Source: Pseudomonadota bacterium (GTDB taxonomy: Bacteria; Desulfobacterota; Binatia; Binatales; Binataceae). Taken from it: 64,000 bases of DNA. Positions 13,985 to 14,804 of this stretch are shown piece after piece (position 1 is the stretch's first letter; each line of letters begins with the position of its first letter). Below the pieces are notes generated by a model. That model did not search any database. It was not told where the DNA came from and saw only the letters and a program-made list of their open reading frames with translations. The stretch is from NCBI GenBank assembly GCA_021324755.1, contig JAJPIL010000014.1, forward strand, positions 372,001-436,000, in the 5' to 3' direction. A program made the position numbers and the translations under genes.

Positions 13985-14024
13985 CAAAAAGAAGGGAGAG
14001 TCCGCCACCAACGGACCCTCCCTT
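13985..14024 (-). terminator. Strong intrinsic terminator for the small lysine-rich gene
   Basis: AAGGGAG-A-GTCCG (13992-14004) pairs with CGGAC-C-CTCCCTT (14012-14024), a 12-bp stem with one mismatch and a 7-base loop. The T-run (CTTTTT) appears only when read on the minus strand. This fits termination of the minus-strand transcript that carries the gene at 14150-14227. It could also stop read-through from the plus-strand ZIP gene, but that side has no T-run. Confidence 0.8.
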
Positions 14025-14108
14025 ACATCGCGAGACCTTAACAGGTCCCTTTAGTCGAGTTGGGACGCCAGGACTGTGATAAAGGTTGAACCTTTAAAAC
14101 TTAGTGTT

Positions 14109-14131
14109 GCCGCAACGCCCGTGATTGCGGC
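14109..14131 (-). repeat. Inverted repeat between small gene and terminator
   Basis: GCCGCAA (14109-14115) and TTGCGGC (14125-14131) are a perfect 7-bp inverted repeat with a 9-base spacer, in the 3' untranslated part of the small lysine-rich gene. No T-run follows, so it may be an mRNA-stabilising hairpin. Confidence 0.5.
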
Positions 14132-14149
14132 GCGGGTAAAGATAAAACG

Positions 14150-14227
14150 CTACTTCTTTTTCTTGGTGGCCTTTTTCTTCATTGCGGCCTTCGTCGCCTT
14201 TTTTGAAGCTTGCTTTGCTGCCGGCAT
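14150..14227 (-). CDS. 25-residue lysine/alanine-rich basic peptide
   Basis: A 25-codon gene too short for routine gene calling. It begins MPAAKQASKKAT, ends in KKKK, and contains 11 Lys, 7 Ala, 3 Thr/Ser-type polar residues and no acidic residue, resembling the tails of histone H1-like or AlgP-like DNA-binding proteins. The evidence that it is real: an AAGGAGGTG ribosome site five bases before the ATG, the best in the window; a TTGATT-17-TATAGA promoter about 100 bases upstream on the same strand; a leader with an 11-bp-spaced direct repeat and a hairpin; and a strong terminator downstream. A role in binding DNA or RNA is inference from charge alone. The alternative is a leader peptide or an RNA whose coding content is accidental. 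Confidence 0.7.
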   Translation of the reverse strand: MPAAKQASKKATKAAMKKKATKKKK

Positions 14228-14256
14228 AGGCACCTCCTTGCCAAAATAAACCGTCC

Positions 14257-14277
14257 TGACGTCCCGATGACGTCCCG
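14257..14277 (-). repeat. 11-bp-phased direct repeat with GACGTC cores
   Basis: TGACGTCCCG occurs at 14257-14266 and again at 14268-14277, one helical turn apart. Each copy contains the palindrome GACGTC. It lies in the predicted leader of the small lysine-rich gene, 30-50 bases before its ATG, and could be an operator. Confidence 0.5.
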
Positions 14278-14291: not shown

Positions 14292-14316
14292 TGGATGCCA
14301 AATCGACTCGTGCTAA

Positions 14317-14345
14317 TCTATACACAAACGAAGTTGTTAAATCAA
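14317..14345 (-). promoter_or_regulatory. Sigma-70-type promoter for the small lysine-rich gene
   Basis: On the minus strand TTGATT (14345-14340) and TATAGA (14322-14317) are separated by exactly 17 bases. Transcription would start near 14310, giving a leader of about 80 bases before the ATG at 14227. Confidence 0.6.
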
Positions 14346-14489: not shown

Positions 14490-14804
14490 ATGCCCCGACC
14501 GTTGCGCATACGGCTAATTCCGCTGCTCTTGCTCGCAGCGTCCGGCGGACTTGTGTTCGAGGCTATCTGGTCGCGTCGCGGGCTTCGTGATTTGCTCGTG
14601 TTACGCCAGCAGGAGCTACAGCTGCGCCAGACGTGCGACCAGCTCGAGCGCGAGAACTCGGTTTTAAATGTCGAGGTGGAAAAACTTCGTTCTGATGACG
14701 TGTATTTACAAAGCTTGATCCACAAGGAACTCGGTTACGTTAAACCGAATGAGTTGGTCTATCGCTTTTCGCCCCGGTCTAGCGATGAATTGCCTTCGGA
14801 GTAG
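14490..14804 (+). CDS. FtsB/DivIC-like septum formation protein
   Basis: Bitopic inner-membrane cell-division protein of 104 residues. A single hydrophobic segment (about 6-24) follows a basic N terminus, then a coiled coil (about 35-70: RQQELQLRQTCDQLERENSV) and the conserved tail DDVYLQSLIHKELGYVKPNE, in which the ELGYVKPNE part is typical of FtsB/DivIC. In the divisome FtsB pairs with FtsL and FtsQ. In many genomes it follows eno; here no eno is adjacent, and its neighbours are a ZIP transporter and an MFS exporter. A TATAAT promoter element is 65 bases upstream. Length and topology fit the family well. Confidence 0.85.
   Translation: MPRPLRIRLIPLLLLAASGGLVFEAIWSRRGLRDLLVLRQQELQLRQTCDQLERENSVLNVEVEKLRSDDVYLQSLIHKELGYVKPNELVYRFSPRSSDELPSE

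Follow-up and report, generated by a model that had tools for sequence, protein, structure and literature searches.

A lysine-rich micropeptide gene in Binataceae and its relatives, enclosed by a predicted long-range RNA clamp

Results

A lysine-rich micropeptide gene with its own expression signals

We analysed a 64,000-nucleotide stretch of contig JAJPIL010000014.1 (positions 372,001 to 436,000 of assembly GCA_021324755.1), referred to as the window, and focused on a 25-codon lysine-rich open reading frame (ORF) on its minus strand together with the transcript around it, here called K-RNA. An earlier note, made from the sequence alone, had read this frame as a small gene with a ribosome site, a promoter and a downstream terminator, and each of these elements was found in place. 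The features of the gene are as follows:

14340-14345, minus strand: -35 element TTGATT, from the sequence; TTG invariant in 27 relatives (alignment)
14317-14322, minus strand: -10 element TATAGA, TATAAT in most relatives (sequence and alignment)
14233-14239, minus strand: Shine-Dalgarno (SD) sequence AAGGAGG; GGAGG invariant in 27 relatives (alignment)
14150-14227, minus strand: ORF of the Lys/Ala-rich micropeptide of 25 amino acids (aa), including the stop codon (sequence, ORF reading; codon-phased substitutions in relatives)
13992-14024, minus strand: intrinsic terminator stem-loop followed by CTTTTTG, a terminator-like hairpin in the sequence

The frame, read from 14227 to 14150, encodes MPAAKQASKKATKAAMKKKATKKKK followed by a stop, with 11 Lys, 7 Ala, no acidic residue and no Arg. 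The two promoter hexamers are separated by 17 bases and the TTGATT...TATAAT element is kept in relatives, though a promoter scan of the window did not list it. When the whole 64 kb was scanned for ORFs that start with ATG, span 12-80 aa and contain 35% Lys or more, this frame alone was returned, which marks it as more than a chance occurrence. The source genome, a 3.07 Mb assembly, has a single copy of the gene.

We then compared the gene among relatives, where f1 denotes the window organism's own taxonomic family and f2, f5 and so on denote other families. Two genomes of a sister genus share 70% DNA identity with the window across the promoter, the ORF and the 3′ untranslated region (3′UTR), and the K-rich peptide, the GGAGG site and the divergent synteny with ftsB recur throughout f1. 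The f1 peptides are 21-36 aa long with the consensus MPxKKK...TKSKPKLKSxMKKKAxKKKKK, of which the window peptide lacks the SKPKLK centre. A search with the peptide profile matched 32 of 145 genomes of the class, once each and all in f1. The frame with its GGAGG site is intact in all f1 genomes examined but one, G022 (L044 around 1151), where it is broken by an apparent single-base deletion while the RNA match remains strong; a pseudogene or an error in the assembly could account for this. The earlier note had named a broken frame beneath a conserved promoter as an observation that would count against a gene; a broken frame was seen in G022 alone, and the gene stands. Between close relatives in f1, substitutions fall 28/19/74 at codon positions 1/2/3, and because they are codon-phased we consider the ORF to be translated. 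The 13-17 aa ORFs of f2 show 7/4/32 by codon position, with 25 synonymous versus 7 nonsynonymous changes. By these sequence criteria, the 25-codon K-rich frame is a real and autonomous gene with its own expression signals.

Within the KSKPK codons of f1 (alignment A1, columns about 195-206), Ser is nearly always TCC and the adjacent Lys often AAA, whereas the Lys codons of the tail are mostly AAG. This difference suggests that the ORF is also constrained at the level of the RNA.

Predicted pairing of the leader with the 3′UTR beyond the stop codon

Helix searches and RNA folding revealed that the leader of the window gene can pair with its 3′UTR past the stop codon, through a helix of 13 bp (P1, GGGACGTCAGGAC/GTCCTGGCGTCCC) and an outer helix of 6 bp (AGTCGA/TCGACT). 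The features of the fold are as follows:

14303-14308, minus strand: outer clamp helix, 5′ strand AGTCGA, partner 14058-14053 (helix search, RNA fold)
14253-14265, minus strand: long-range clamp helix P1, 5′ strand (helix search, RNA fold)
14062-14074, minus strand: long-range clamp helix P1, 3′ strand (helix search, RNA fold)
14053-14058, minus strand: outer clamp helix, 3′ strand TCGACT (helix search, RNA fold)
14258-14274, minus strand: GACGTC ATCGG GACGTC, a possible local hairpin competing with the long-range helix (sequence, local fold; competition not family-wide)
14032-14049, minus strand: hairpin GGGACC...GGTCTC after the clamp, equivalent to P4 (RNA fold; the equivalent covaries in relatives)
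14049-14270, minus strand: match of covariance model R1, 51.6 bits (R1 search)

The fold of 14310-14032 reached -106 kcal/mol (z = -6.2) and was closed by P1 and the outer helix as found. The GACGTC repeat that the earlier note had seen in the leader is present, with copies at 14274-14269 and 14263-14258 spaced 11 bases apart; the repeat and the hairpin are not separate signals, since the second copy is part of the P1 5′ strand, whose other strand lies in the 3′UTR. The note's picture of a lone peptide gene was right about a translated gene, but the leader had been taken as promoter furniture and the conserved structured RNA around the ORF was overlooked.

In 27 f1 sequences, 88.5% of the cells of the named structure were paired and both-side changes occurred in 18 of its 38 pairs, a level reached in none of 500 shuffles, and the signal was destroyed when partners were slid by one to three columns. 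P1 itself carries both-side changes in 6 of 13 pairs, and its sequence is very different between close genera (GGGACGTCAGGAC in the window, CGGCGCTAGCGCA in G027). In RNAduplex comparisons of the whole leader with the whole 3′UTR, the cognate mean was -39.8 versus -34.5; this is a blunt test, and contiguous helices were sharper. We consider it well supported by covariation that the transcript is a structured RNA whose ends are clamped together, with the ribosome site and the ORF in the enclosed loop.

The ribosome site would remain accessible in this fold. It was unpaired at 0.50 in the full-length prediction versus 0.40 with a shuffled 3′UTR, and the SD plus AUG was no less open with the real 3′UTR than with a shuffled or absent one, both values being predictions from approximate transcript starts. 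A fold-back that hides the ribosome site in the manner of icaR or hok is therefore not supported as a general mechanism.

The clamp recurs with different sequences in other families

We searched for the element with two covariance models, R1, built from f1, and R2, both of which include ORF sequence. R1 matched 106 of 148 genomes of the class at E <= 0.1, the weakest matches being uncertain, and 38 of the 40 R1 loci inspected outside f1 carried an SD-led K-rich ORF, a count that is partly circular. Three other lines of evidence escape this circularity: the long-range helix, a neighbourhood that recurs, and the codon phase. Around SD-led Lys/Ala ORFs of 13-75 codons, a long-range helix of differing sequence was found in about ten further families within the class and in two from other parts of the phylum. 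The encoded peptides have 13-17 aa in f2 (MAAKKKAKKKKKK), 19 in f17, 25-40 in f7, 21-27 in f13, 29-32 in f14, 29 in f8, 32-60 in f11, 36-41 in f6, 22-75 in f5 and 24-30 in f9. The clamp helix reads TCGCCTGAG/CTCAGGCGA in f2, f6, f7, f9 and f17, CTCGTGCGGAGGGA/TCCCTTCGCACGAG in f8, and GAGTTCGAGACGGGGG/CCCCCGTCTCGAACTC in one f13 genome. Helices between cognate leaders and 3′UTRs outscored non-cognate ones from other families (mean 25.6 vs 20.2, p = 5e-23). The promoters are strong as judged by consensus.

Outside the class, R2 identified full-length elements in f28 (three genomes, all that were examined of that class) and f47 (one genome), with helices of 16-17 bp; in f28, GGTCGCCCGGGGTAATC/GATTRCCCCGGGCGACC encloses MPTKKKAAKKKAKKPAKKKK. 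Phylum-wide R2 matches that covered the SD and ORF part alone, such as the long K-rich proteins of f18, were excluded from the element count. At these f18 loci (L192, L194) the SD-led ORFs encode longer proteins rich in Lys (83-105 aa, MATKKKVKKAV...) and no long-range helix is present; the product is possibly an unrelated H1-like protein. In several families (L149-L188), G-rich leaders (GGTGGTTGTGGGGTGG...) lie directly 5′ of the clamp strand and could possibly form other structures.

A second helix crosses the first in several families. In f2 and f17 the strands of the second helix (GGGAGGGTTT/AAACCCTCCT) are placed 5′ to those of the first, in the leader as well as in the 3′UTR, so that the two helices cross as a pseudoknot. 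Members of f11, f13 and f14 show the same topology with GGTGGGTGGCT/GGCCATTCACT, and a single f7 genome does so with GCTGTGGATGAGG/TTTCATTCGCAGC. Crossing-helix scores also exceeded those of non-cognate pairs (p = 8e-8). The second helix of f1 (P2) is nested, not crossing.

Gene neighbourhood

The window gene lies between a convergent ZIP transporter gene (PF02535) and the divergent ftsB:

14490-14804, plus strand: ftsB (DivIC), conserved divergent neighbour (PF04977; synteny)

FtsB used as a single query gave no match against the genome contigs. Elsewhere in the class, ftsB is followed by eno (identified from its protein sequence) and K-RNA, and often by an alpha/beta hydrolase gene; eno, K-RNA and the hydrolase gene lie on the same strand. 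We take this order, ftsB/eno/K-RNA/alpha-beta hydrolase, to be the ancestral one. At the f1 site eno is lost, and the window site also lacks the hydrolase. In f28, K-RNA is flanked by genes that we take, from their protein starts, to be mnmG and hisS. Given that the flanks vary in these ways, the gene persists without any given neighbour.

A conserved alpha/beta hydrolase (KF..PLLLLHGLW...HRGWE) is encoded 3′ of the element and co-directionally with it in many families, for example at L221:4733-5503, L223:4215-5045, L064:6809-7636 and L067:7984-8796. Its weak best matches include an intracellular polyhydroxyalkanoate depolymerase model (18 bits, far below the cut-off).

Discussion

We favour, with moderate confidence, the reading that K-RNA is a highly expressed, clamp-stabilised mRNA, and that the disordered polycation it encodes binds nucleic acid or polyphosphate. 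The gene shows two conserved layers, both well supported by sequence. The first comprises a promoter of its own, an AGGAGG ribosome site, the translated micropeptide rich in Lys and Ala, and a terminator; the second is the pairing of a leader segment with the 3′UTR beyond the stop, to which several families add the crossing helix. By tying up the 5′ and 3′ ends while the ribosome site stays open, the clamp would yield a stable, heavily translated small mRNA. An abundant and long-lived transcript would fit this arrangement, because the ends are protected and the site is open; the strong consensus promoters agree, and the abundance is inferred. The peptides are 42-67% Lys, with nearly no acidic residues and no aromatic residue, Cys or His, and their length is free (13-75 aa). 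Since composition is constrained and length is not, the disordered polycation may act through its charge and condense or tether an acidic polymer, be it DNA, RNA or polyphosphate, as AlgP and PhaF do with their KPAA tails.

Several points weigh against this reading. The fold is not identical throughout, because P2 of f1 is nested instead of crossing; the count of K-rich ORFs is partly circular, because the R1 and R2 models contain ORF sequence; and the promoters are assigned by consensus. The clamp could also belong to a regulatory RNA instead of stabilising an mRNA, and with 13 residues the shortest peptides may lack the length that a specific role would need.

A bolder version, which we put forward tentatively, is that of a pseudoknotted, end-clamped RNA-peptide gene found in several classes of one phylum, whose minimal polycation (MAAKKKAKKKKKK) would work together with its own RNA or upon it, for instance in a ribonucleoprotein or as a condenser resembling polyamines.

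Clearly less probable to us than the preferred reading is a dual-function RNA, in which the structured RNA itself would do most of the work by base-pairing with or binding further partners, and the peptide would be a secondary product, like delta-hemolysin in RNAIII. Structure is conserved beyond the exact peptide sequence, peptide length varies from 13 to 75 aa within a constant architecture, several families have a pseudoknot, and RNAIII, the mRNA of a 26-aa peptide with a 5′/3′ fold-back, sets a precedent (PMC3868564). However, the SD, the start codon, the Lys content and the reading frame are strongly selected in all families, and outside the helices the families have little RNA sequence in common.

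An mRNA regulated like a riboswitch or by its own product, in which the leader strand would form either a local hairpin or the long-range helix and thereby control translation of the peptide, seems improbable. Competing local hairpins can be drawn in the window (GACGTC-ATCGG-GACGTC), f7 (CGCTC/GAGCG) and f28/f47 (GGTAATC/GATTACC), and the cyanobacterial Downstream-peptide motif likewise precedes ORFs of 17-100 aa (PMC2864571). Yet across the family the stability of the local hairpin is no better than chance (mean z -0.33), so that such a switch is worth considering only in the window, f7 and f28/f47, and in the clamped form the ribosome site is predicted not to be occluded.

Very improbable is a leader peptide or attenuator, in which translation of Lys codons would sense charged tRNA-Lys and control a downstream gene. 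The short Lys-rich ORF, the hairpins and the terminator would suit it, as would the hydrolase gene directly downstream on the same strand in many families. A co-directional gene past the terminator is present in some relatives and absent from the window, and the ORF and fold persist although the next gene is convergent there (ZIP) and in G228; since this leaves nothing to control, we reject attenuation. Further, the helix strands lie outside the ORF and do not overlap the Lys codons. A type I toxin mRNA with a fold-back like hok or AapA can hardly be entertained, for despite the small peptide and the long-range 5′/3′ pairing, the products are pure polycations without a hydrophobic segment or aromatic residues (Lys 42-67%), and K-RNA is single-copy and vertically inherited in a fixed neighbourhood.

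K-RNA offers a clean system for asking whether pairing between the two ends of an mRNA stabilises the molecule or tunes its translation, and a test case for a role of pure polylysine peptides in organising bacterial nucleic acid or polyphosphate. Annotation would miss this deeply conserved gene twice, as its ORF is under the usual length limits and none of the family libraries searched contains its RNA. Selection at the codon level on an ORF of 13 codons, lying in a covarying RNA, would place it among the smallest well-supported bacterial genes.

Comparison with known systems

No Rfam family matched the element in the window or in relatives, the sole match in the window being one tRNA. Neither Pfam nor NCBIfam matched the window peptide or those of its relatives, the PDB gave no match to the peptide profile, and the gene is undescribed in the literature searched, whose coverage was partial. 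The element is not the transfer-messenger RNA (tmRNA), as the genome has an ordinary tmRNA on contig C29 and RF00023 has no match at the locus. We also set aside 6S RNA: RF00013 had no match in the whole genome G000, although this model misses many controls, so that absence of 6S RNA is not shown and a divergent one may exist there.

K-RNA shares with tmRNA a structured RNA around a short ORF, but its ORF has its own SD and start codon and its transcript ends in a terminator. The C-terminal domains of AlgP and PhaF are rich in Lys, Ala and Pro; that of AlgP is needed for the spacing of polyphosphate granules, and KPAA peptides bind DNA (PMC9239181). With these domains and with H1-like proteins such as Hc2, the K-RNA peptides share a Lys/Ala/Pro-rich, disordered character of variable length with nearly no acidic residues, disorder being inferred from composition. 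The earlier comparison with histone-H1-like tails thus holds for composition, Lys/Ala-rich without acidic residues, and not for homology, as Pfam and NCBIfam showed none to an H1-like family. AlgP, PhaF and Hc2 differ in being long repeat proteins or tails, whereas the K-RNA polycation stands alone, at 13-75 aa, in a clamped RNA.

In Staphylococcus aureus, RNAIII is the mRNA of the 26-aa delta-hemolysin peptide and folds back 5′ to 3′, and in icaR mRNA such pairing hides the SD and feeds RNase III (PMC3868564). K-RNA likewise pairs its 5′ and 3′ regions, and like RNAIII it combines a conserved structured RNA with a translated peptide, as judged by covariation, helices and codon phase. It differs from icaR in that its SD is open in the predicted fold, and it has no sequence relation and no Rfam match to these RNAs. 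The cyanobacterial Downstream-peptide motif (yfr6) precedes conserved ORFs of 17-100 aa (PMC2864571) and also ties a structured RNA to a small conserved ORF, but in K-RNA the pairing spans the ORF, and Rfam scans gave no match to that motif. RNAs in which small ORFs are embedded are already known (PMC5521070); the K-RNA family, with its clamp round a poly-lysine ORF and its depth, appears to be new as far as our tools show.
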